Part shown: positions 326 to 13,427 of the stretch, piece by piece
Layout: each line of letters begins with the position of its first letter
Position numbering within the stretch: position 1 is the stretch's first letter
Assembly (NCBI RefSeq): GCF_014196455.1
Contig: NZ_JACIDS010000004.1
Span: forward strand, 744,001 to 808,000
Reading direction: 5' to 3'
DNA length: 64,000 nt
From: Kaistia hirudinis
Lineage (GTDB): Bacteria; Pseudomonadota; Alphaproteobacteria; Rhizobiales; Kaistiaceae
Notes under the pieces: model-generated
Databases searched by the model: none
Told to the model about the DNA's origin: nothing
Seen by the model: the letters and a program-made list of their open reading frames with translations, nothing else
Translations under genes and position numbers: made by a program

Positions 326-1252
326 ATGAACGAGACCGATATCGGCTTCTGGGGCGTCCCGCTCGCAATGTTCGCCGGCGCCATCCGCGTCTCGACGCCC
401 TTCCTCTTCGTCTCGCTCGGCGAATGCCTGACCGAGAAGTCGGGCCGCATCAATCTCGGCCTCGAGGGCACGCTCGTCTTCGGCGCCATGTCTGGCTATG
501 CCGTCGCTTATCTCACCGGCTCGCCCTGGTTCGGCGTGTTCTGCGCCGGCCTCTCCGGCTGCTTCTTCGGCGCGATCCACGGCTATATCTGCAAGCTGCC
601 CAAGGTGAATGACATCGCGATCGGCATCGCCATGATGCTGTTCGGCACCGGCCTTGCCTTCTTCTTCGGCAAGCCCTTCATCCAGCCACAGGCGCCGCAT
701 CTGCCCTCGATCTCGCTCGGCGGCTGGTCGTCGTTGCCGCAGGTCCGCTCGGCGCTGGAGATCAACCCGCTGTTCTTCATCGGCATCGCGCTCGCCGTGT
801 TCATGTGGTGGGCGTTCAAGAACACGCGCTGGGGCCTCATCGTGCGCATGACCGGCGACAGCGCGCCGGCAGCGCTCGCCATGGGCTATTCGGTGGATTG
901 GGTGCGCTTCCTCGCGACGACGGTCGGCGGCTTCTTCGCCGGTGTCGGCGGCGCTTTCCTGTCGCTCTATTATCCCGGCGCCTGGAGCGAGGGCCTTTCC
1001 TCCGGCCAGGGCCTGATGGCGGTCGCCCTCGTCATCTTCGCGCGCTGGAATCCGCTCGCCTGCTTCGGCGCGGCGCTGCTGTTCGGCGCGGCCGGCGCGC
1101 TCGGCCCGGCACTGCAATCCGTCGGCATCACGCAGGGCTACTACTTCTTCAACGCCGCGCCCTACCTGCTGACGCTCTTCATCATGATCGCCTCGGTCTC
1201 GCCGAAGCGCTCGCTGAAGGGCGCGCCCGGCGAACTGTCGATCACCAAGTGA
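326..1252 (+). CDS. ABC transporter permease, BMP/nucleoside family (NupQ/YufQ-like)
   Basis: A 308-residue inner-membrane protein with about eight hydrophobic helices. The N-terminal part (around residues 28-50) carries the family signature LTEKSGRINLGLEG, typical of the second permease in BMP-type nucleoside importers. The start ATG follows the upstream permease stop by 2 bp and the stop precedes amiF by 7 bp, so all are one transcription unit. The substrate cannot be read from the permease. Given the neighbouring hydrolases it is likely a small cyclic or linear ureide or imide such as cyanurate, biuret or a pyrimidine breakdown product (inference). Confidence 0.85.
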   Translation: MNETDIGFWGVPLAMFAGAIRVSTPFLFVSLGECLTEKSGRINLGLEGTLVFGAMSGYAVAYLTGSPWFGVFCAGLSGCFFGAIHGYICKLPKVNDIAIGIAMMLFGTGLAFFFGKPFIQPQAPHLPSISLGGWSSLPQVRSALEINPLFFIGIALAVFMWWAFKNTRWGLIVRMTGDSAPAALAMGYSVDWVRFLATTVGGFFAGVGGAFLSLYYPGAWSEGLSSGQGLMAVALVIFARWNPLACFGAALLFGAAGALGPALQSVGITQGYYFFNAAPYLLTLFIMIASVSPKRSLKGAPGELSITK

Positions 1253-1259
1253 GTGAGAA

Positions 1260-2276
1260 ATGAACGGTCTCGGAGGTCTCAACAAATCGCCAAACGGCGT
1301 CGTCATCGGGCTGGTGCAGTTGCAGCTTCCGGTCACGGTGACGCCGGCCGATCTCGCCCGTCAGACCGCGCGCATCGTGGAACTGGTCGGCAAGGCGCGG
1401 CGCAACAATGCCGGCATGGATCTGGTCGTCTTTCCGGAATATGCGCTGCACGGCCTGTCGATGGACACCAATCCGGCGATCATGTGCTCGCTGGACGGGC
1501 CGGAGATCGCCGCCTTCAAGGCCGCCTGCAAGGAGCACCGGATCTGGGGCTGCTTCTCCATCATGGAGTATAACCCCGGCGGCAATCCCTATAATTCCGG
1601 CGTCATCATCGACGATCAGGGCGCGCTGAAACTCTACTATCGCAAGCTCCATCCCTGGGTCCCCGTCGAGCCCTGGGAGCCGGGCGATCTCGGCATTCCC
1701 GTGATCGACGGGCCGAAGGGCTGCAAGCTCGGCCTCATCATCTGCCATGACGGCATGTTCCCGGAGATGGCGCGCGAGGCGGCCTATAAGGGCGCGGAGA
1801 TCATGATCCGCACGGCCGGCTATACCGCGCCGATCCGCGAGAGCTGGCGCTTCACCAACCAGTCCAACTCCTTCTGCAACCTCATGGTGACGGCGAATGT
1901 GTGCATGTCGGGGTCCGACGGCACCTTCGATTCCATGGGCGAGGGGATGATCGTCAATTTCGACGGCTCGATCATCGCGCATGGCACGAACGGGCGGCCG
2001 GACGAGATCATCACGGCCGAGGTGCGTCCGGATCTGGTGCGCGAGGCCCGCATCAACTGGGGCGTCGAGAACAATATCTATCAGTTCGGTCACCGCGCCT
2101 ATGTCGCGGTCAAGGGCGGGGCGCAGGACTGCCCCTACACCTACATGACCGACCTCGCTGCCGGGACATACCGCCTGCCCTGGGAGGACCAGATCGTCGT
2201 CACCGACGGCACGTCCTGCGGCTTCCCGGCGCCGACGCGCCTCTATGGCGAAAAGCGCGCCGAAGCGGCGGAATAG
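1260..2276 (+). CDS. amiF: Formamidase AmiF-type nitrilase-superfamily amidase
   Basis: 338 residues, the usual AmiF length, matching the Helicobacter formamidase family along its whole length: SIMEYNP, YRKLHPW, EPWEPGDLG, ICHDGM and YKGAEI are all present. The nitrilase-fold triad is visible as Glu60 (FPEY), Lys129 (YRKL) and Cys162 (ICHDG). The family hydrolyses formamide to formate and ammonia in the cytoplasm; related enzymes act on other short amides. It sits between the importer permeases and biuH, spaced 7 and 12 bp. In this operon it may release ammonia from a small amide produced by ring breakdown, but the true substrate is not evident from sequence. Confidence 0.88.
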   Translation: MNGLGGLNKSPNGVVIGLVQLQLPVTVTPADLARQTARIVELVGKARRNNAGMDLVVFPEYALHGLSMDTNPAIMCSLDGPEIAAFKAACKEHRIWGCFSIMEYNPGGNPYNSGVIIDDQGALKLYYRKLHPWVPVEPWEPGDLGIPVIDGPKGCKLGLIICHDGMFPEMAREAAYKGAEIMIRTAGYTAPIRESWRFTNQSNSFCNLMVTANVCMSGSDGTFDSMGEGMIVNFDGSIIAHGTNGRPDEIITAEVRPDLVREARINWGVENNIYQFGHRAYVAVKGGAQDCPYTYMTDLAAGTYRLPWEDQIVVTDGTSCGFPAPTRLYGEKRAEAAE

Positions 2277-2288
2277 GAGAGCGTAGCC

Positions 2289-3017
2289 ATGAGTTCGCAA
2301 ACCCTCGACGAGCGCATCGACGGCGTTCAGGTTGCCGGCGGCCGCACGATCGCGTCGGAGCCCTATGCGTGGCCGTTCGACGGCGATCTGCGGCCCGAGA
2401 ACACGGCGCTGGTCGTCATCGACATGCAGACCGATTTCTGCGGCGTCGGCGGCTATGTCGACAGCATGGGCTACGACATCTCGCTGACGCGGGCGCCGAT
2501 CGAGCCGATCCGCCGCCTGCTCGCCGCGATGCGGGCCAAGGGCTATCACATCATCCACACGCGCGAGGGCCACAGGCCGGACCTCTCGGACCTGCCGGCC
2601 AACAAGCGCTGGCGCTCGCAACGCATCGGCGCCGGTATCGGCGATCAGGGCCCGCAGGGGCGCATCCTCGTGCGCGGCGAGCCGGGCTGGGAAATCATCC
2701 CGGAGCTTGCGCCCGAGCCGGGCGAACCGGTGATCGACAAGCCGGGCAAGGGCACGTTCTGCGCCACCGATTTCGAACTCGTGCTCCGGATGCGCGGTAT
2801 CCGCAACATCGTGCTCACCGGCATCACGACCGATGTGTGCGTGCACACGACCATGCGCGAGGCGAATGATCGCGGCTTCGAGTGCCTGATCCTTTCGGAT
2901 TGTTGCGGCGCGACCAGGCACGAGAACCATCTGGCCGCGCTCGACATGGTCAAGATGCAGGGCGGCGTGTTCGGTGCCGTCGCCACGTCGGACGCGCTGC
3001 TCGCGGTGCTGCCATGA
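2289..3017 (+). CDS. biuH: Biuret amidohydrolase BiuH (isochorismatase-like cysteine hydrolase)
   Basis: 242 residues of the isochorismatase-like fold. The triad is Asp45 (VVIDMQTDF), Lys151 (IDKPGKG) and Cys184 (TTDVCV), with 106- and 33-residue spacing that matches the characterised rhizobial biuret hydrolase. Other BiuH hallmarks are [23 protein letters not shown] and [15 protein letters not shown]. BiuH converts biuret to allophanate and ammonia. An AGGAG ribosome site overlaps the amiF stop. The stop overlaps the start of the ring-opening hydrolase (ATGA at 3014), so the two are translationally coupled. This supports a role directly after ring opening: carboxybiuret loses CO2 to give biuret, which this enzyme hydrolyses. 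Confidence 0.87.
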
Positions 3018-4159
3018 CGCGCCGCAGCGCCTTCGTCCATCGTTTCCCTGCTCGCGCGCCCGATGACGTCGCGCCGATCGAGGAGGCGATCCGCAGCGGC
3101 CTGCTGCGCCCCGAGGGCATTGTCGCGGTGCTCGGCAAGACCGAGGGCAATGGCAATGTCAACGACTTCACCCGCGCCTTCGCGGTGCGCGCGGTGAAGG
3201 ATGCCCTCCGCCCGCATCTTGTGCCCCAGGCGGTCGAACGGATCTCCTATGTCATGTCGGGCGGCACCGAGGGCGCGCTCGCGCCGCACTGGATCGTGCT
3301 CGGCCGCACTGAAGCGCCTGCGGGCGAGAGCGTCTCGCCCGCGCTTGCGGTGGGCGGCGCGCATACGCCGCCGCTCGCCTTCGAGGATCTCGGCCGCATG
3401 GGCCAGGTCCGCCTCGTCGCCGAGGGCGTGCGCGCGGCGATGCGCGACGCCGGCATCGACGATCCGGCCGACGTGCATTTCGTGCAGATCAAGTGCCCGC
3501 TGCTGACGGCCGAGCGCATCGCCGCCGTCGCGGCGCGCGGCAAGAGTGTTGCCGTGCGCGAGACGCTGAAATCCATGGGCCTTTCACGCGGCGCCTCGGC
3601 GCTCGGCGTGGCGCTGGCGCTTGGCGAGATCACCGAGGCGGAGATCGGCGACGACGCGATCGGTCGCGACACGGCGCTCTATTCGGGCCGCGCCTCGACC
3701 TCGGCTGGCGTCGAGCTGGAGAACCACGAGATCGTCGTGCTCGGCATGAGCAATCGCTGGGCCGGTCCGCTTGCCATCGACCACGCCGTGATGAACGATT
3801 CGATCGATGTCGAGCCGGTTCGCGCGGCGCTGAAGCGGCTCGGCTTCCGGGCGAGCGGCCAGCTCGTGCCGGAGGAGCGGCCCGGCCTCGTCGCGCTGCT
3901 CGCCAAGGCCGAGGCCGGCACCACGGGGCGGCTGCGCGGCCGTCGCCACACCATGCTGGACGATTCCGACATCTCGTCGACCCGCCATGCGCGCGCCTTC
4001 GTCGCCGGGGCGCTCGCCGCGCTCGTCGGCCATGCCGAGATCTTCGTCTCCGGCGGCGCCGAGCATCAGGGCCCCGATGGCGGCGGTCCCGTCGCCCTCA
4101 TCGCCAGCACCGAGCTGATCCCGCATCCGACGTCCAGCCGAGGAGACCTTGTCTCATGA
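3014..4159 (+). CDS. atzD: Ring-opening amidohydrolase, probable cyanuric acid amidohydrolase (AtzD/barbiturase family)
   Basis: 381 residues of the three-fold symmetric AtzD/TrzD/barbiturase family. The three Lys-Ser pairs expected of the three repeats are visible: Lys42 (GKTEGNG) with Ser82 (MSGGTEG), Lys160 (VQIKCPLL) with Ser230 (ASTSAG), and Lys298 (AKAEAG) with Ser346 ([10 protein letters not shown]). The family opens cyanuric acid to carboxybiuret, or barbiturate to ureidomalonate. Text such as [12 protein letters not shown] and [16 protein letters not shown] is closer to cyanuric acid hydrolases than to Rhodococcus barbiturase as I remember them, and the adjacent biuH and atzGEH homologues favour cyanurate. 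Its ATGA overlaps tie it to biuH upstream and to the ATPase downstream. Confidence 0.85.
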
Positions 4160-5691
4160 GCGCCGTTCCCGCCCCGCATCCGCGCCGCGCCGTCGAATTG
4201 CAGACGATCGGCATGACCAAGATCTTCGGCTCGCTCATCGCGCTGGAGGACGTGTCGATCCATGTGCGGCCCGGCACACTGCATGCGCTGCTCGGCGAGA
4301 ACGGGGCCGGCAAGTCGACCCTGGTCAAATGCATCATGGGCTTCTACCAGCCGACCCGCGGCGAGGTGCTGGTCGACGGCAAGGAGGCGGTGATCGCCTC
4401 GCCGCGCGACGCGCATGCCCATGGCATCGGCATGGTCTACCAGCATTTCACGCTGGTGCCCTCGCTAACCGCGGCCGAGAATCTCGTCATCTCGCGCGCG
4501 CATCCGCCCGCCGTCATCGACTGGAAGAAGGAGATCGCGGGACTGGAGGAATTCCTCTCCCGCATGCCGTTCAAGGTGCCGCTGACCGTGCCGGTCTCCG
4601 GCCTTTCGGCCGGTGAGAAGCAGAAGCTCGAGATCCTGAAGCAGCTCTATCTCGACCAGCGCCTGCTAATCCTCGACGAACCGACCTCGGTGCTCACGCC
4701 CGGCGAGGCCGACGAGGTGCTCGGCCTGCTGCGCGGCATGACGGAAGCCGGCGACCTGACGATCCTCATGATCAGCCACAAGTTCCGCGAGGTCACGGCC
4801 TATGCGGACGACGTGACGGTGCTGCGCCGCGGGCGGATGGTCGGCGGCGGCCGCGTCGGCGAACTCTCCGTCGACGATATGAGCCACATGATGATCGGCG
4901 ACACCAAGATCCGCGAGCGGGCGGCGCGCAAGGAATTCAGCGGCGAGCCGGTCGTGCTGGAACTTGCCGGCATCTTCTCCGATGACGACACCGGCCTGCC
5001 GGCGGTGAAGGGCGTCAATCTCAAGATCCATGCCGGCGAGATCGTGGGCATCGCCGGTGTCTCCGGCAACGGCCAGTCGACGCTGATCGAGGTCCTGTCG
5101 GGCCAGCGCGAGATGAGCGACGGGCGGCTGTTCATCCACGGCAAGCCGTTCGAGCCGACGCGGCAGAAGATGGCGGAATTCAAGGTGTTCGGCCTGCCGG
5201 AGGAGCCGCTGAAGAATGCGGCGGTGCGGCGCATGAGCGTCGCCGAGAACATCGCCTTCCGCTCCTTCGACAAGCCGCCGATCGCCGGCCGCTTCGGCTT
5301 CATGTCGCCGAAGCCGATGCGCCAGAAGGCGCGCGAGCTGATCGCGCAATACCGCGTCAAGACGCCGTCGCCCGAGGAGCCGATCGAGAATCTCTCCGGC
5401 GGCAATGTCCAGCGCGCGATCCTGGCGCGCGAACTCTCCGGCGAGGTCGAGGTGCTGGTCGTCGCCAATCCCTGCTTCGGCCTCGACTTTGCCTCGGTAT
5501 CGGAGATCCGCTCGCAGATCATGGACCAGCGCAACCGCGGCGCCGCGGTGCTGCTCGTCTCCGAGGATCTCGACGAGATCCTCGAGCTGTCGGACCGCGT
5601 CGCGGTCATGTCGGGCGGCGCCATCCATTATGTCGTCCCGATCGCGGAAGCCGACCGCAACTCGATCGGCAAGGCCATGGCGGGACATTGA
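4156..5691 (+). CDS. ABC transporter double ATP-binding protein, BMP/nucleoside family (NupO/YufO-like)
   Basis: 511 residues with two fused nucleotide-binding domains. Domain 1 (about residues 16-250) has Walker [10 protein letters not shown], signature LSAGEKQ and Walker B LLILDEPT. Domain 2 (about 265-505) has the degenerate Walker [10 protein letters not shown] without Lys and signature LSGGNVQ, as is normal for the second half of this class. It energises uptake through the permeases at 1-1252. Its placement after three hydrolases, with an ATGA overlap to the ring-opening enzyme at 4156, binds transport and catabolism into one operon. It is followed by a 170-bp gap holding a paired inverted repeat. 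Confidence 0.92.
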
Positions 5692-5725
5692 GCGATGCCT
5701 GCCGCGTTTCATCTCTATCGGACAA

Positions 5726-5837
5726 CCCCCCTCTCCAGCTCTCCCCCACAAGGGGGGGAGAGGCGGTCCGGTTCCTTCATCGGCAACGCGCTCCTTCTTC
5801 TCCCTCCCCCCTTGTGGGGGAGGGCCGGGGAGGGGGG
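5726..5837. repeat. Paired inverted palindromic element (REPIN-like), copy 1
   Basis: Two arms, 5726-5763 and 5801-5837, are near-exact reverse complements of each other. Each contains a smaller hairpin around CCCCCACAAGGGGG (or its complement). They fill the only sizeable gap inside the amidohydrolase operon, between the ATPase and the second cysteine hydrolase. The same architecture recurs at four other intergenic sites in this window. It could form a large cruciform or hairpin in RNA and partly uncouple expression of the genes on either side. Confidence 0.8.
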
Positions 5838-5861
5838 CCTTCGTCACGCCAGGTGCGCATC

Positions 5862-6539
5862 ATGATCACCGTTCCCGCCGATCCCTTTCCCTATGCCTTC
5901 CCGCCCGGCAAGGTCGCGCTCATCGTGATCGACATGCAGCGCGATTTCGTCGAGCCCGGCGGCTTCGGCGAGTCGCTCGGCAATGACGTCTCGCTGCTGC
6001 GGGCGATCATCCCGACGGTCGCGGAGCTGATCGCGCTGTTCCGCCGCGAAGGCTGGCCGGTGATCCATACGCGCGAAGGGCATCTGGCCGATCTTTCCGA
6101 TTGCCCGCCGAGCAAGATCCGGCGCGGCAAGCCGTCCCTGCGCATCGGCGATGCCGGGCCGATGGGCCGCATCATGGTGCGGGGCGAGCCCGGCAACGCG
6201 ATCATCCCGGAGCTTGCGCCGATCGAGGGCGAGATCGTCATCGACAAGCCGGGCAAGGGCGCGTTCTACGCCACCTCGCTCGGGGCGGATCTCGAACGGC
6301 TCGGCATTACCCATCTCGTCTTCGCGGGCGTCACCACGGAGGTCTGCGTGCAGACGACCATGCGTGAGGCCAATGATCGCGGCTATGACTGCCTGCTGAT
6401 CGAGGATGCGACCGAGAGCTATTTCCCGTCCTACAAGGCCGCGACGGTCTCGATGATCGCCGCGCAGGGCGCCATTGTCGGCTGCGTGGCGCCGCTTGCC
6501 GCGCTCAGCACGGCGGTCGAAAAGTCGGAGGCGGCGTGA
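5862..6539 (+). CDS. Isochorismatase-like cysteine hydrolase, paralogue of BiuH, substrate unknown
   Basis: 225 residues from the ATG at 5862, preceded by AGGTG; the frame stays open upstream but through the palindromic repeat, so the longer start is unlikely. The triad is Asp24 (VIDMQRDF), Lys129 (IDKPGKG) and Cys162 (TTEVCV). It shares long conserved stretches with the BiuH homologue at 2289 ([32 protein letters not shown]), so the two are operon paralogues. The BiuH segment RWRSQRIG is replaced by [11 protein letters not shown] and the C-terminal CCGA by an Ala-Thr-Glu segment, suggesting a different substrate. Plausible substrates are ureidomalonate, another ureide or an N-carbamoyl acid; none is proven. 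The stop overlaps the atzG GTG start. Confidence 0.85.
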
Positions 6540-6730
6540 ACATGGCCGAACGTGAATTCGATGCCGAGGCGCATGTCGCGCATATGGCGAGCGTGATGGG
6601 CCTCACCATCCGGCCGGAATGGCGCGAGGGCGTCGTCGCCAATATGAAGGCCACCGCGCGTGCCGCCGGCCTGGTCACGGAGTTCAGGCTCGAGGAGCAT
6701 GTCGAGCCGGCGCCGGTGTTCGAGCCGTGA
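6536..6730 (+). CDS. atzG: AtzG-like small subunit (DUF4089, GatC-like)
   Basis: 64 residues from a GTG at 6536 that overlaps the upstream stop (GTGA), or 62 from the ATG at 6542. It shows the compact helical pattern of AtzG/DUF4089: a His-Met-rich first helix, then [13 protein letters not shown], then a conserved C-terminal [13 protein letters not shown] tail. In the Pseudomonas sp. ADP system AtzG is an obligate partner that keeps the AtzE amidase soluble and active, as GatC does for GatA. Here its GTGA overlap with the amidase at 6727 implies coupled 1:1 synthesis, supporting a working AtzEG heterotetramer. Confidence 0.85.
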
Positions 6731-8142
6731 GCGATTTTGCCGATATCCTGCACCGGCCTGGCCACGAGATCGTGGCCGATGTCGCCGCGCGCCGCCTTTC
6801 CGCCCGCGAGGTGGCCGAGGCCGCGCTCGACGCGATCGAGGCCGGCAATCCGAAGCTGAACGCCTTCACCGATGTGACGCATGAGCGCGCGGTGCGCGAG
6901 GCCGACCGTGTCGATGATCTGGTGCGGCGGGGTACGCCGCCGCCGCTCGCCGGGCTGCCCTATTCGGTCAAGAACCTCTTCGATGTCGAGGGCGTGGTCA
7001 CGCGGGCCGGCTCGAAGATCAACCGCGACAACCCGCCTGCGCCGCGCGATGCCGGCCTCGTCGAGCGGATGACGGCCTCGGGCGGCGTGCTGCTCGGCGC
7101 GGTCAACATGGGCGAATATGCTTATGATTTCACGGGCGAGAACGCGCATGACGGCGCCTCGCTCAACCCGCATGACCCCTCGCGCATGTCGGGCGGCTCC
7201 TCCGGCGGCTCCGGCACTTCGGTCGCGGCCGGCATGGTGGCGGCCTCGCTCGGCTCCGACACCAACGGCTCGATCCGCGTGCCGTCGTCCTTCTGCGGCC
7301 TTTATGGTCTCAAGCCGACCTTCGGCCGGCTCAGCCGCTCGCGCACCTTCCCCTTCGTGGCGAGCCTCGATCATCTCGGGCCGATCGCCCGCTCGCCGCG
7401 CGATCTTGCCCTTCTCTTCGACGCGCTGCAGGGCACCGACGCCGACGATCCCGCCCAGATCGAGCGGTCGCCGATCGCCGCCGGCGCGACGCTGGAGGGT
7501 GGAATCGACGGATTGCGGATCGCTGTCGCTGGCGGCTATTTCCGCCGCCAGGCCATGCCCGAGGCGCTGGCGGGCGTCGATCATGTCGCCAAGGCGCTCG
7601 GCGTGAGCCGGGAGGTTGAACTGTTCGAGGCGCATCGCGCCCGCGCAGCGGCCTATCTGATCACGACGAGCGAATCCTCGGCGCAGCATTGGCCGCGTCT
7701 CGTGGAGCGCGCGGCGGATTTCGATCCGGACACGCGCGATCGCTTTCTGTCCGGCGCGATGGTGCCGGCCGCCTGGTACATCGCCGCGCAGCGCTTCCGC
7801 GCGCTGTTCCGCGCCGAAATGCGCAAGCTGTTCGAGACGGTCGACGTCATCCTCGCGCCGGCGACGCCGTTCCGTGCGCTACCCTCGGGCACCAAAACGG
7901 TCGAACTCGACGGCGTAACCCTTCCGGCGCGGCCGAATATCGGCCTCTTCGCCCAGCCCATCTCCTTTATCGGCCTGCCGGTCGTCGCCGTGCCGGTCTG
8001 GCTTCCCGGCGCGACGCTGCCGATCGGCGTTCAGGTGATCGCGCCGGCCTGGCGCGAGCACGTTGCGCTGCGCGTCGCGCACGTGTTGCATGCAACCGGT
8101 GCAACGTCTGCGCCGGTTGCGGCGTTGATTCGAGACGAGTGA
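6727..8142 (+). CDS. atzE: AtzE-type amidase, probable 1-carboxybiuret hydrolase
   Basis: 471 residues of the amidase-signature family, starting at the GTG overlapping the atzG stop. The Ser-cisSer-Lys triad is readable as Lys82 (YSVKNLFDV), Ser158 (in GGSSGGSGTS) and Ser182 (GSDTNGSIRVPSS). The 24-residue gap between the two Ser residues is normal for GatA-like enzymes. AtzE removes an amino group from 1-carboxybiuret to give 1,3-dicarboxyurea. The immediate atzG-atzE-atzH order identifies this as the AtzE branch rather than GatA. AtzGEH clusters are also known without atzD, so other ureide substrates remain possible, but the atzD homologue in the same operon supports the s-triazine role. 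Confidence 0.87.
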   Translation: MSDFADILHRPGHEIVADVAARRLSAREVAEAALDAIEAGNPKLNAFTDVTHERAVREADRVDDLVRRGTPPPLAGLPYSVKNLFDVEGVVTRAGSKINRDNPPAPRDAGLVERMTASGGVLLGAVNMGEYAYDFTGENAHDGASLNPHDPSRMSGGSSGGSGTSVAAGMVAASLGSDTNGSIRVPSSFCGLYGLKPTFGRLSRSRTFPFVASLDHLGPIARSPRDLALLFDALQGTDADDPAQIERSPIAAGATLEGGIDGLRIAVAGGYFRRQAMPEALAGVDHVAKALGVSREVELFEAHRARAAAYLITTSESSAQHWPRLVERAADFDPDTRDRFLSGAMVPAAWYIAAQRFRALFRAEMRKLFETVDVILAPATPFRALPSGTKTVELDGVTLPARPNIGLFAQPISFIGLPVVAVPVWLPGATLPIGVQVIAPAWREHVALRVAHVLHATGATSAPVAALIRDE

Positions 8143-8550
8143 ATGATGGAAATCGATATTCCCGAGGTGAAGGCGGAGCTGGAGGCGGCGTTCGCGGCCT
8201 ATGAGACGGCGCTGACCACGAACGATGTCGACGTGCTCGACGCGCTGTTCCTGGATGCGCCGACCACCATCCGCTATGGCGGTGGGGAGAACCTTTATGG
8301 CTATCAGGAAATCGCGGCCTTCCGCGCCGGCCGTTCGCCGGCCGGGCTCATGCGCGCGCTTGAGCGCACCGTGATCACCACCTATGGGCGCGATTTCGGC
8401 GTCGCCTCGACGCTGTTCCGCCGCGACAGCGCGGCCGGCAAGATCGGCCGCCAGATGCAGACATGGCTCCGCACCGATGCGGGCTGGCGGGTCGTCGCGG
8501 CGCATGTCTCGATCATCGCCGATCCGGATTCCGGGGGAGGCGGGCGGTGA
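8143..8550 (+). CDS. atzH: AtzH-like DUF3225 protein (SnoaL/NTF2-like), probable 1,3-dicarboxyurea amidase
   Basis: 135 residues (133 from the second Met) of the NTF2-like fold. Tyr20 (FAAYETAL) and Arg44 (TTIRYGGGE) occupy, with a shift of two, the positions of Tyr22 and Arg46 reported as essential in Pseudomonas AtzH, and the [14 protein letters not shown] segment is typical of DUF3225. AtzH is proposed to convert 1,3-dicarboxyurea, the AtzE product, to allophanate. The start is directly after the atzE stop and the stop overlaps the GntR gene start (GTGA), so it is part of the same operon. Confidence 0.85.
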
Positions 8551-9224
8551 GCGTCCAGCACAGCGAGGAGGGCGAAGTTCCTGTCCGTCGTACCCGGACG
8601 GAGGATCTGCGGCTCCAGCTCGCCGACGACATCGTGCGCGGCGTCTTCGCGCCGGGCGACCCCTTGGACGAGATCGGGCTGGCGACGCGCTACGGCGTCT
8701 CGCGCACGCCGGTTCGCGAAGCCCTGCGGCAGCTTGCCGCCAGCGGCCTGGTCGAGATCCGCCCGCATCGCGGCGCCATCGTCACGCGGCCGTCCGAGAA
8801 GCGCCTCTTCGAGATGTTTCTCGTGATGGCGGAGCTCGAAGGCCTCTGCGCCGGCCTTGCCGCTGAGGCGATGTCGATCCTGGAGCGGCGCGAACTCGCC
8901 AAGCTGCATGCCTCGCTCGGCGATCTGGTCGAGACCGGGGATCCGGCGCGCTATGCGCTCGCCAATGAAGGCTTCCACGGCGCCATCTATGCCGGCTCGC
9001 ACAATGAATATCTCGGCGAAATGACGCAGGCGACGCGTGCGCGCCTCGCCCCGTTCCGCCGGGCGCAGTTCCGCCAGAGCGGCCGCCTCGCCGAATCCTT
9101 CCACGAGCACGACCGCATCGTGCAGGCGATCCTGGCCGGCGACCGCGACCGGGCGACGCGCGAGATGCGCGATCACATCGGCACCGTGAAGGAAGCCTTC
9201 GATCGCTATATCGGCGGCCGGTGA
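8547..9224 (+). CDS. GntR-family transcriptional regulator, FadR subfamily (FCD domain)
   Basis: 225 residues from the GTG at 8547 overlapping the atzH stop. The N-terminal winged helix (about residues 14-80) includes [12 protein letters not shown], the GntR recognition-helix motif. The rest is an all-helical FCD ligand-binding domain with FHGAIY and HNEYL, which usually supply metal-binding His residues. As the last gene of the operon it is probably an autoregulated repressor released by a pathway intermediate such as biuret, allophanate or the ring substrate (inference). The operon promoter lies outside the window, so its operator cannot be inspected. Confidence 0.88.
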
Positions 9225-10362: not shown

Positions 10363-11064
10363 CTAGAGGCAGTCATTGTAGCCGCCGGCCTGGCGGGCGA
10401 GCTGCTCGATCGTGCGGGCGCGCGATTGCATGGCGCGCGTGGGCTTGGCCGGATTGCGCAGGATCGGGTTGGGCAGCGCCGCGGTGAGCAACGCCGCCTG
10501 GCGCGGCGTCAGATCCTTGGCGGATTTGTTGAAATAGCGCCGCGACGCGGCCTCGACGCCGAAGAGGCCGGGGCCCCATTCGGCGATGTTCAGGTAGATC
10601 GTCATGATCCGCCGCTTGGAGAGCACGAAGTCGGCGTAATAGGCGAGCGGGATCTCGAGGCCCTTGCGGATATAGCTGCGCGACTGCCACAGGAAGAGGT
10701 TCTTCACCGTCTGCATCGGGATGGTGCTGGCGCCGCGAGACGGGCCCTTCTTCGAATCGAGCACGAGATTGAGCTGCTGCCAGTCGACGCCATTGTGCTG
10801 ACAGAAGCGGCCATCCTCCGACATGATCACCGAATTCACCATCACCGGCGCGATCTCGTCGAATGAGACCCAGTCGCGCTCCATGCCCTGGAAGGTGATC
10901 GCCGACCACAGCATCAGCGTCGAGACGGGCGGAACGACGGCATAGAGCGGCGTCAGCACGACGGGCAGCGCCGCAATGGCCAGAAACACCTTAAGTACTC
11001 CCATGACGAGCCCGCGGCGGTCGGAGAAGGCGCCCGACAGGGCCGTGGGCCAGGCGATGCTCAT
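10363..11064 (-). CDS. mtgA: Monofunctional peptidoglycan glycosyltransferase MtgA (GT51)
   Basis: 233 residues: one N-terminal transmembrane helix (about 22-45), then a GT51 domain. The catalytic Glu83 lies in EDGRFCQHNG, and the family motifs GASTIPMQ and KRRIMTIYLNIAEWG are present. The enzyme polymerises lipid II into glycan strands at the periplasmic face and has no transpeptidase domain. The start chosen overlaps the oxyR stop by ATGA, which implies coupled translation; an internal Met at residue 21 is a possible alternative. Coupling of a wall polymerase to a peroxide sensor is unusual. Confidence 0.92.
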   Translation of the reverse strand: MSIAWPTALSGAFSDRRGLVMGVLKVFLAIAALPVVLTPLYAVVPPVSTLMLWSAITFQGMERDWVSFDEIAPVMVNSVIMSEDGRFCQHNGVDWQQLNLVLDSKKGPSRGASTIPMQTVKNLFLWQSRSYIRKGLEIPLAYYADFVLSKRRIMTIYLNIAEWGPGLFGVEAASRRYFNKSAKDLTPRQAALLTAALPNPILRNPAKPTRAMQSRARTIEQLARQAGGYNDCL

Positions 11065-11978
11065 GCGGCCGCCTTGGCGGGCTCGAGCGCGAAGCGGCGC
11101 AGGAAATGCGCGAGCAGGCGGAAATCGCCCTCGCGGCTCGATCCCTTGCGCCAGACGAGGCCGAGCGAGCGGCGGGCCGGCCGCGCCTCGATCTCGCAGA
11201 GCGATATGTCCGTGCCGGAGAGGATGCCGGCCTCGACGGCGATGCGCGGCACGAAGGTGACGCCGAGCGCATTGTCGACCATCTGCACCAGCGTGGTGAG
11301 GCTGGACGCGCGGATCTCCTCGCTCTGGTGCTCGACCAGCTCGGGCGCGGCGGCGCGCACATGGTCGGACAGGCAGTGCCCGTCCTCCAGCAGGAGCAGC
11401 GTCTCGCCCGACAATTCCGCCGGACGGACCGAGCGGCGGCCCGCCAGGCGGTGATCCCCGTCGACGGCGAGAAGCAGGCTGTCCTCGGCGATGATCTCGT
11501 GCACCAGACCCTCTGTGGCGATCGGAAACGCGATCAGCACGGTATCGAGCCGGCCAGCGCGCAGGTCCTCCAGCATGACGCGGGTCAGGTCCTCACGCAA
11601 ATGCAGCTTGAGATCGGGATAGGCGCGCCGCAGATGCGGCAGCGTCCGCGGCAGGAAGAACGGTGCGATCGAGGGGATCACGCCGAGCCGCAGCCGGCCG
11701 TTGAGCGGGGCGTGGCCGGCCCGGACCGCGTCGACCATGTCGCGCGCATCGACCAGCAGCGCCTTCATGCGCGCGAGCGCCGTCTCGCCGGCCGGCGTGA
11801 GGCTCGCGATTCGGTTGGAGCGGTCGACGAGACCGATGCCGAGCGTCTCCTCGAGCTGGCGGATCGCGTCGGACAGCGTCGATTGCGTCACGTTGCTGGC
11901 GCTCGCCGCGCGGCTGAACGAGCCGGTCTCGGCGAGCGCCACGAAGTACTGCATCTGGCGAAGGGTCGGGAGTTGCAT
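11061..11978 (-). CDS. oxyR: OxyR-type LysR-family regulator with a single regulatory cysteine
   Basis: 305 residues starting at MQLPTLRQMQYF; longer upstream frames are not family-like. The N-terminal LysR helix-turn-helix (about 4-62) is followed by a substrate domain containing LLLEDGHCLSDH. Cys202 matches the peroxidatic Cys199 of E. coli OxyR. The position nine residues on, where the second Cys should be, is Ala211, so the classical disulfide cannot form. It is divergent from ahpC-ahpD, the standard OxyR target, with inverted repeats in between. Together with the target genes this makes the OxyR call firm, but the switching chemistry must differ. Confidence 0.85.
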   Translation of the reverse strand: MQLPTLRQMQYFVALAETGSFSRAASASNVTQSTLSDAIRQLEETLGIGLVDRSNRIASLTPAGETALARMKALLVDARDMVDAVRAGHAPLNGRLRLGVIPSIAPFFLPRTLPHLRRAYPDLKLHLREDLTRVMLEDLRAGRLDTVLIAFPIATEGLVHEIIAEDSLLLAVDGDHRLAGRRSVRPAELSGETLLLLEDGHCLSDHVRAAAPELVEHQSEEIRASSLTTLVQMVDNALGVTFVPRIAVEAGILSGTDISLCEIEARPARRSLGLVWRKGSSREGDFRLLAHFLRRFALEPAKAAA

Positions 11979-12034
11979 GGGCTGTCCGCTCGTGGGGGGA
12001 GGGGCTTTTGTCCAGGGGCGCGGCAGGTCGCCGC

Positions 12035-12067
12035 ATCGATAATATCGATCGTTCCGTTCGGATATTA
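12035..12067. promoter_or_regulatory. Candidate OxyR operator in the oxyR-ahpC intergenic region
   Basis: The palindrome ATCGATAATATCGAT (12035-12049) overlaps a wider inverted repeat, TAATATC (12040-12046) with GATATTA (12061-12067). The position, between divergent oxyR and ahpC, and the dyad form fit LysR-type binding. It is not a clean match to the E. coli ATAG-N7-CTAT tetramer. Confidence 0.45.
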
Positions 12068-12182
12068 CGGTTTGACCGATCGAAAGACGCGTGTCATTTC
12101 TTCGCACATGCACCAGTGGCGCGCGAGTAGCGCGTGCACTGCGTCAATGGCCTCTTTCGACCACCCTGAACAGGAGATCACC

Positions 12183-12734
12183 ATGCTCGGTATCGGCGAC
12201 AAGCTGCCTGCCTTTTCCGTGACCGGCGTCAAACCCGGCTTCAACCGCCACGAGGAGAACGGCGAGAGCGCCTTCGAGGCCGTGACGGAGACGAGCTTCC
12301 CGGGCAAGTGGAAGGTCATCTTCTTCTACCCGAAGGACTTCACCTTCGTCTGCCCGACCGAGATCGCCGAGTTCGCCCGCCTCGCCAGCGAGTTCGAGGA
12401 TCGCGACACGGTTGTGCTCGGCGGCTCGACCGACAACGAGTTCGTGAAGCTCGCCTGGCGGCGTGACCACAAGGATCTCGACCGGCTGCCGATCTGGTCG
12501 TTCGCCGACACCAATGGTTCGCTCGTCGACGGCCTTGGCGTGCGCTCGCCCGACGGCGTCGCCTATCGCGTGACCTTCATCGTCGATCCGGAAGGCACGA
12601 TCCAGCACGTCTACGCGACCAACCTCAATGTCGGCCGCAACCCGAAGGACACGCTCCGCGTCCTCGACGCGCTGCAGACGGACGAGCTGTGCGCCTGCAA
12701 CCGCGAAGTCGGCGGCGAGACGCTGGCGGCGTAA
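12183..12734 (+). CDS. ahpC: Alkyl hydroperoxide reductase AhpC (actinobacterial-type 2-Cys peroxiredoxin)
   Basis: 183 residues with a peroxiredoxin core. Peroxidatic Cys57 is in DFTFVCPTEI, and the C-terminal pair Cys170 and Cys172 is in DELCACN. This three-Cys layout matches Mycobacterium AhpC, which is re-reduced by AhpD rather than AhpF. The start is ATG 12183, preceded by AGGAG. It detoxifies H2O2, organic peroxides and peroxynitrite in the cytosol. It is divergent from oxyR and followed after a repeat-filled 165-bp gap by ahpD, its expected reducing partner. Confidence 0.95.
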   Translation: MLGIGDKLPAFSVTGVKPGFNRHEENGESAFEAVTETSFPGKWKVIFFYPKDFTFVCPTEIAEFARLASEFEDRDTVVLGGSTDNEFVKLAWRRDHKDLDRLPIWSFADTNGSLVDGLGVRSPDGVAYRVTFIVDPEGTIQHVYATNLNVGRNPKDTLRVLDALQTDELCACNREVGGETLAA

Positions 12735-12761
12735 TCCTGTCAGGACGGCCGTGAACCCTTC

Positions 12762-12883
12762 CACCTCTCCCTGAGGGAGAGGTCGGCCCGCAAGGGCCGG
12801 GAGAGGGTTTACGGCCCGTCCTGATCGTTCCCTAAACCCTCTCCCGACGGCTCCGCCGTCGACCTCCCCCTCAGGGGGAGGTG
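12762..12883. repeat. Paired inverted palindromic element (REPIN-like), copy 2
   Basis: Arm 12762-12811 and arm 12833-12883 are inverted copies of a unit running CACCTC-CCCTGAGGG-GAGGTCG, a variable small hairpin, then GGGAGAGGGTTTA. They fill the ahpC-ahpD gap. The same unit, including the GGGTTTA end, recurs at 32098-32146. Confidence 0.85.
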
Positions 12884-12899
12884 AAAAGCCGAGGCACCC

Positions 12900-13427
12900 A
12901 TGTCGATCGATAGCCTGAAGTCCCGCATTCCGGATTTTGCCAAGGACGTCCGGCTCAATCTCTCTGCGCTCGCCTCCGACGAGACGCTGACGCCGCAGCA
13001 GAAATACGGCCTGATCGTCGCCTGCGGCATTGCGAGCCGCAACAAGGAAGTGCGCACCGCGATGGAGCTCGAGGCGGCGCCGCATCTGACGCCCGCCGCG
13101 CTCGCCGCCGCCAAGGCCGCCGCGACGATCATGGGCATGAACAACGTCTATTACCGCTTCACCCATCTCGTCTCGAACGACGAATACCGCACGCTGCCGG
13201 CCAAGCTGCGCATGAACGTCATCGGCAATCCGGGCGTCGACAAGGTCGATTTCGAGCTCTGGGCGCTGGCCGTCTCGGCGATCAATGGCTGCGGCGCCTG
13301 CATGGACAGCCATGAGGCGGTGGCCCGCAAGGCCAACCTCTCCGTCGAGGCGATCCAGGCCGCCGTCCGCTTCGCCGCGATCATCCAGTCGGCCGCGATC
13401 GCGCTGGAGGCTGCCGAAGCCGCTTGA
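12900..13427 (+). CDS. ahpD: Alkyl hydroperoxidase AhpD
   Basis: 175 all-helical residues with the AhpD active site Cys131-Gly-Ala-Cys134 and His138 ([10 protein letters not shown]), plus Glu119, the same layout as the mycobacterial enzyme. AhpD uses lipoyl carriers such as dihydrolipoamide succinyltransferase to recycle oxidised AhpC, and has weak peroxidase activity itself. It lies downstream of ahpC on the same strand. A paired inverted repeat between the genes may let AhpC be made in excess over AhpD. Confidence 0.95.

Follow-up and report, generated by a model that had tools for sequence, protein, structure and literature searches.

A gene cluster predicted to supply nitrogen by importing and degrading cyanuric acid, triuret, and biuret was analysed in a 64,000-nucleotide stretch of DNA (the window; contig C4, positions 744001 to 808000, of the 5.26-Mb Kaistia hirudinis genome). 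The cluster spans positions 326–9224, with every gene on the + strand, in the order permease, amiF, biuH, atzD, ATP-binding cassette (ABC) ATPase, trtA, atzG, atzE, atzH, gntR. Quite probably, AtzGE and AtzH consume 1-carboxybiuret in place of a cupin step of related clusters, with BiuH clearing biuret, and the operon serves for nitrogen from cyanurate, triuret, and biuret. A sequence-only reading of the window had named amiF, biuH, an AtzD-family enzyme, a second cysteine hydrolase, atzG, atzE, atzH, an ABC importer, and a GntR regulator; all were confirmed on the + strand, close to the positions it gave. That reading missed the TrtA-like identity of the second cysteine hydrolase, by which two substrates would converge on carboxybiuret. 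The features are as follows.

1–323, + strand: 3′ end of ABC permease 1, which starts about 790 bases 5′ of the window; relatives hold homologues in the same place
326–1252, + strand: ABC permease 2 (BPD_transp_2; PF02653, 123 bits)
1260–2276, + strand: amiF, formamidase-like C-N hydrolase (NF009803, 572 bits, cut-off 406)
2289–3017, + strand: biuH, biuret hydrolase (NF050097, 423 bits, cut-off 370; BiuH structure 6azo, 407 bits; residue signature)
3014–4159, + strand: atzD, cyanuric acid hydrolase type (NF052395, 554 bits, cut-off 360; structure 4nq3, 428 bits)
4156–5691, + strand: abc, ABC transporter ATPase with two ABC stretches (PF00005)
5692–5861, + strand: dispersed palindromic repeat in the abc–trtA gap (genome matches; fold −105 kcal/mol, z −7.7)
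5862–6539, + strand: trtA, triuret hydrolase type (TrtA structure 6xix, 318 bits; F35/N41/E160/Q202/I205)
6536–6730, + strand: atzG, small subunit (PF13318, 62 bits)
6727–8142, + strand: atzE, large subunit of 1-carboxybiuret hydrolase type (TIGR02715, 635 bits, cut-off 426; strain ADP AtzE structure 6c62, 468 bits)
8143–8550, + strand: atzH, predicted dicarboxyurea decarboxylase (PF11533, 187 bits; nine pocket residues; NCBIfam HpxZ, 194 bits)
8332–8334, + strand: codon of the pocket arginine (residue 64, aligned with Arg66 of strain ADP AtzH)
8547–9224, + strand: gntR, FCD-type GntR regulator (PF00392, PF07729)

The genes had been read as linked by stop/start overlaps, which holds for five junctions with 4-base overlaps (biuH/atzD, atzD/abc, trtA/atzG, atzG/atzE, and atzH/gntR) and fails between abc and trtA, 170 bases apart with the palindromic repeat between them. 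The atzE/atzH junction measures 0 bases, and the gaps flanking amiF are 7 and 12 bases. The importer extends 5′ of the window (stretch L002), where permease 1 is preceded by a BMP binding protein. The best match of this protein among solved structures is AtzT of Pseudomonas sp. strain ADP (156 bits), with 3s99 a close second (153 bits); for AtzT, guanine is reported as the tightest ligand, and 2-hydroxyatrazine is also bound (PMC6834077). The allophanate hydrolase gene atzF lies outside the operon: the sole genome match over the cut-off is on another contig (C1:600421-602091), and one further match (487 bits) falls just under it.

As judged from family scores and residues, AtzD is of the cyanuric acid type and not a barbiturase, which narrows the AtzD/barbiturase-family assignment of the sequence-only reading. 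Compared with solved structures, it matches the Azorhizobium cyanuric acid hydrolase 4nq3 far above the barbiturase 5hwe (257 bits). Three Ser-Lys dyads, Arg52, Arg188, and Glu230 (Azorhizobium numbering) are all identical; position 188 is Gln in the barbiturase subgroup (PMC4051656). According to the same source, cyanuric acid hydrolases and barbiturases are homologous, and neither takes the other's substrate.

The two cysteine hydrolases were told apart by score and by residues 35, 41, 160, 202, and 205, which are discussed as separating TrtA from BiuH (PMC7948467). BiuH has the Asp-Lys-Cys triad together with Tyr, Tyr, Asp, Gln, and Val at these positions. The second cysteine hydrolase scores 256 bits against the BiuH family NF050097, under the cut-off, and reaches 318 bits with the TrtA structure versus at most 220 bits with BiuH structures; its Asp-Lys-Cys triad is complete, and Phe35, Asn41, Glu160, Gln202, and Ile205 are all there. 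By these sequence marks it is TrtA-like, that is, of the triuret hydrolase type. Each family's own signature was present in all 49 TrtA and all 50 BiuH sequences compared; two BiuH genes from loci lacking TrtA (L231 and L232, from the 29 stretches behind sample B described below) carry Ile for Val at the last place.

AtzE keeps the amidase-signature lysine and two serine motifs, and an AtzG-like small subunit is encoded alongside. AtzH keeps all nine pocket residues listed for the strain ADP protein (PMC6219798): Tyr22, Arg46, Arg63, Arg66, Arg73, Phe94, Arg96, Gln106, and Gln108. Locus L038 (17249-18094) encodes a fusion of an AtzH domain with the C-terminal domain of allophanate hydrolase (PF11533 and PF21986), which ties AtzH to allophanate breakdown. 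The window genome holds a second AtzH-family gene (L300, C6:120000-134000), whose residues 63 and 66 are Asn and Arg; amidase-like matches adjoin it.

From these identities and from precedent we infer the substrates. TrtA is reported to convert triuret to carboxybiuret, which decarboxylates spontaneously (half-life about 20 min), and AtzEG to hydrolyse this product of TrtA (PMC7948467); in strain ADP, AtzGE is reported to deaminate carboxybiuret (PMC6219798). In the Kaistia operon, AtzD would open cyanurate and TrtA would deaminate triuret, both giving 1-carboxybiuret. AtzGE would deaminate carboxybiuret to 1,3-dicarboxyurea before CO2 is lost, and AtzH would remove one carboxyl group, leaving allophanate. 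BiuH would convert biuret, formed spontaneously or imported, to the same allophanate, and AtzF, encoded elsewhere, would finish it. The sequence-only reading had left open whether the second branch captures carboxybiuret before or after decarboxylation; from the sequences, AtzGEH would most likely act before it, and BiuH afterwards, on biuret. In clusters with a cupin, the cupin would decarboxylate carboxybiuret to biuret and BiuH would do the rest. BiuH would be useful in both cluster types, because carboxybiuret partly decays to biuret and biuret may also be imported; AtzGEH would then replace the cupin step and not BiuH.

The distribution of the two modules was followed in 63 clusters carrying both BiuH and TrtA, comprising sample A (47), sample B (12), and four annotated plasmid clusters. 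Sample A consists of the window, 41 loci from the best 80 of 549 confirmed AtzD relatives, three genomes of the order, and two plasmids; L039 and L042 were left out as copies of L080 and L081, and among the Rhizobium rows several are near-copies. Sample B was taken from 29 stretches (28 genomes) around TrtA matches, with 37 of 398 genomes of the phylum matching, the window's own included; eight TrtA-matching genomes lie outside these stretches, one of which (G034) stands in sample A as L040. The four plasmid clusters are biased by class: L160 was picked from hits of a cupin query, and L302, L304, and L305 from those of an AtzH query. A cupin was called at 45% identity or more, a threshold set in this analysis; at E 1e-3 no cupin of 20% to 45% identity occurs in any cluster.

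The cupin is present in 33 of these clusters and AtzE in 20 (17 with AtzH in the locus); nine have an AtzH-family gene without AtzE, and one (L122) has neither; the last ends at a contig end, and AtzE and AtzH lie on another contig of its genome. A cupin together with AtzE or AtzH was found in none of the 63. Sample A alone gives 25 with the cupin, 18 with AtzE, three with an AtzH-family gene without AtzE, one with neither, and none with both. The 29 stretches around TrtA matches divide into seven with BiuH, TrtA, and cupin; two with BiuH, TrtA, AtzE, and AtzH; three with BiuH, TrtA, and AtzH; three with TrtA, AtzE, and AtzH; 12 with TrtA alone; and two with BiuH alone. The exclusivity also extends to whole genomes. 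An AtzH-family match of any kind occurs in 46 of the 398 genomes; these include all five BiuH+TrtA genomes of sample B without the cupin and none of its seven cupin-type genomes (six of the seven are shown with 0 matches, and the other falls in the unlisted part). In the window genome, the only cupin match is weak (31%, 22.5 bits).

In a quick BiuH+AtzD+TrtA tree of the 47 clusters, four changes between cupin and no cupin are needed, all forced by starred branches; a careful tree gives three (bootstrap range 3–4). In sample A, exclusivity has persisted across a small number of switches; sample B shows it again. This alternation suggests that cupin and AtzGEH do the same job, the controlled removal of carboxybiuret. 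Three loci (L224, L225, and L227) combine AtzGE and AtzH with a TrtA-signature gene and lack BiuH within a 19.5-kb stretch, an arrangement expected if AtzGE takes the product of TrtA. The search of genomes for biuH together with atzGEH, which the sequence-only reading had proposed, showed the combination to be recurrent, AtzE standing in nearly a third of the BiuH+TrtA clusters, and ruled out that it is unique to the window genome. The nearest cluster rows in the trees are those of Kaistia dalseonensis and K. soli, and since the same gene order and neighbours occur in other genera, the arrangement in the window is not due to chance.

Several observations weigh against AtzGEH as a replacement of the cupin step. 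Omitting the long rows L040, L126, and L123 from the quick tree leaves two changes, of which starred branches force one. The cupin is probably a decarboxylase, and the basis for this is its position. AtzE is missing from nine clusters that do carry an AtzH-family gene. About 18 kb away from the TrtA gene of L224, beyond the fetched stretch, its genome holds a possible BiuH that matches TrtA at 52%, within the BiuH range. Twelve of the 29 stretches hold a TrtA-signature gene without BiuH, cupin, AtzE, or AtzH, so the signature alone is no proof of the pathway. The 170-base repeat, across which a single transcript is presumed, weakens the picture of one uninterrupted operon. Finally, AtzE has oxalurate relatives (HpxY), and AtzGE could accordingly act on oxalurate.

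The last point leads to the best surviving alternative, which we nevertheless regard as unlikely: AtzGEH would be an oxalurate module of the HpxXYZ type riding along, carboxybiuret would decarboxylate alone, and BiuH would do all the work. Oxalurate is a product of uric acid oxidation, from which the substrates of the cluster may all arise. In line with this, NCBIfam labels the AtzH protein HpxZ at well over the cut-off of 135 bits, and AtzE and HpxY are related (PMC12625717). Yet an oxalurate module should coexist with the cupin, which it does in none of the 63 clusters. Moreover, in a quick AtzE tree of 52 rows built with a simple model, strain ADP AtzE pairs with the AtzE beside the biuH-trtA cluster of L213 (SH-aLRT 100) and lies apart from the AtzE group taken as enterobacterial. 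The same pairing hints, from a small sample, that the module of the atrazine plasmid could have come from biuret/triuret clusters.

About as doubtful, or marginally more so, is a division into two transcription units, importer-amiF-biuH-atzD-abc and trtA-atzGEH-gntR, expressed under different conditions, with the result that the branches never meet in the same cell state. It would account for a gap with a very stable fold, and the window is not alone in having a long one. The abc–trtA gap measures 2–25 bases in 10 of the 14 AtzE-type loci checked and at least 170 in four, the window included. Excluding the window, three of 13 loci have gaps above 200 bases, and the 10 with short gaps include the nearest relatives L079, L080, and L081. 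The repeat itself gives 42 genome matches at E 0.001, with self matches and both-strand arm matches included, and is matched over about 113–122 bases at three other places in the genome. Because it is dispersed in this way, and because gaps are short in most other loci, the nearest relatives included, the repeat looks like a late insertion, although a long gap is not unique to the window; this argues against two transcription units. Possibly, it serves as an RNA-processing or attenuation site.

An operon for a pyrimidine or another imide had been offered by the sequence-only reading. With a barbiturase and amidases acting on ureidomalonate-like products, it would draw on the homology of barbiturases with cyanuric acid hydrolases (PMC4051656) and on the 257-bit barbiturase match, but is highly improbable and was rejected on Arg188 in place of Gln and on the equivalog and structure scores of AtzD, next to which TrtA- and BiuH-type genes stand.

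A 5-formyltetrahydrofolate-cyclo-ligase-like gene was also considered as the missing decarboxylase and was not adopted. It is found in nine of the 17 clusters with AtzE and AtzH and in none of the 33 cupin clusters; the window genome's top match reaches 35% identity and lies elsewhere, and the family also stands with BMP transporters alone. Genes of this family lie near atzE/atzH in L042 (4797-5576, − strand), L039 (14386-15150), L033 (4333-5091), and others, and are absent from the window and from K. dalseonensis (L079). On marine plasmids, a LysR gene and a BMP transporter are the only partners of the family. Neither a cupin nor a cyclo-ligase turned up in the biuret/triuret literature searched.

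The nine clusters in which an AtzH-family gene stands in or beside the BiuH-TrtA cluster, with no AtzE in the locus, were analysed further. AtzE was searched for beyond the locus in six cases: nothing exceeded the 426-bit cut-off in the genomes of L110 (Rhizobium oryzicola) and L114 (the latter has a 368-bit match) or, for L073, on its plasmid, the only part searched, and no match at E 1e-100 was found in the genomes of L206, L208, and L210. Residue 66 was then compared in 73 AtzH-family sequences, that of strain ADP included. Arg66 is present in all 63 proteins that do not belong to BiuH clusters lacking AtzE; of these, 17 stand in BiuH clusters with AtzE, 34 with AtzE and without BiuH, and 12 with neither in the fetched stretch. 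Residue 66 is not arginine in any of the 10 AtzH proteins of BiuH clusters without AtzE (Cys in six, Gln in three, Leu in one), the tenth coming from L299, which has BiuH without TrtA. Leaving out L302, L304, and L305, which are biased by the AtzH query, the count is seven of seven instead of 10 of 10. On an AtzH tree that is short of columns, loss of the residue takes three changes, one of them forced by starred branches. The three different replacement residues suggest that Arg66 was lost repeatedly, and the sequences suggest a second kind of AtzH marked by this loss.

For strain ADP AtzH, docking of 1,3-dicarboxyurea predicted a pocket rich in arginines, and Arg66 is part of it (PMC6219798). 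An AtzH beside an AtzE-type amidase would meet a dicarboxylate; AtzH in BiuH clusters without AtzE would meet carboxybiuret, which has one carboxylate. In the part of PMC6219798 drawn on here, neither Arg66 variant is among the five impaired AtzH variants listed, which lowers the weight of a reading based on Arg66. With this in mind, a scheme of three interchangeable carboxybiuret modules in an otherwise unchanged operon is put forward tentatively, as a serious possibility somewhat short of probable: the cupin in Rhizobium, Jiella, and others; AtzGE with an Arg66-type AtzH in Kaistia and others; and AtzH lacking Arg66, without AtzGE. Loss of Arg66 would then mark the turn from a dicarboxyurea to a carboxybiuret decarboxylase, and carboxybiuret would be decarboxylated by two unrelated proteins, the cupin and the AtzH without Arg66, of which one may be TrtB of Herbaspirillum.

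The Kaistia operon was compared with four known systems. On plasmid pR132505 of Rhizobium leguminosarum WSM1325, the order BMP-perm-perm-amiF-biuH-atzD-abc-trtA-cupin is the same as in K. hirudinis from binding protein to trtA; a 117-residue cupin stands where the window has atzG-atzE-atzH, and gntR lies upstream and divergent, whereas it is the last gene in the window. A Rhizobium-type biuret operon has the cupin after trtA; the window has atzG there. One Rhizobium plasmid groups biuH with a 45% cupin, atzF, and a divergent atzD-family gene, and in Mesorhizobium the order is biuH-abc-trtA-cupin-atzF. With atzDGEHF of Pseudomonas sp. ADP, the window shares homologues of AtzD, AtzG, AtzE, and AtzH, the atzG-atzE-atzH order, and the AtzT-like binding protein. 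In contrast, atzF lies inside that operon, which has no biuH, and strain ADP is described in the cited part of PMC6219798 as not degrading biuret; in the window operon, biuH and trtA are present and atzF is not.

In Herbaspirillum, TrtA-TrtB-BiuH-AtzF is reported (PMC7948467). The TrtA and BiuH signatures match those of the window, and the carboxybiuret decarboxylase TrtB is used where the window has AtzGEH. Enterobacterial ggt-atzG-atzE-atzH clusters (hpxWXYZ type; PMC6219798) share the AtzG-AtzE-AtzH trio; rows presumed to be of this type (f92) group apart in the AtzE tree, and their fetched stretches contain neither BiuH nor TrtA nor AtzD. Both routes have been proposed side by side in one Paenarthrobacter strain, with GatCA replacing AtzEG and without an operon (PMC11945447). 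BiuH and AtzGEH in one operon were not found described in the titles and abstract openings of the literature searched.

Some neighbouring genes were recorded as well. Just 5′ of the window (L002:8746-9705) lies a 2-oxoglutarate dioxygenase gene related to ethylene-forming enzyme and thymine dioxygenase, with a homologue near seven of the 63 BiuH+TrtA clusters, the window's counted. Further 5′ is a gene for a deaminase-like amidohydrolase (L002:1445-2848, − strand), labelled guanine deaminase by eye only, a homologue of which is also upstream in K. soli (L081). At 11061-13427 of the window, a LysR-family gene diverges from peroxiredoxin-like and AhpD-like genes (by eye), an ordinary arrangement.

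If AtzGEH does take over the cupin step, this would explain why the organism keeps both BiuH and AtzGEH, as they would act on two forms of a self-decaying intermediate, and the operon would differ from its relatives mainly in how carboxybiuret is caught. Residue 66 may provide a sequence mark that splits two likely functions within the AtzH/HpxZ family, some of whose proteins carry an oxalurate annotation in the plasmid records examined.

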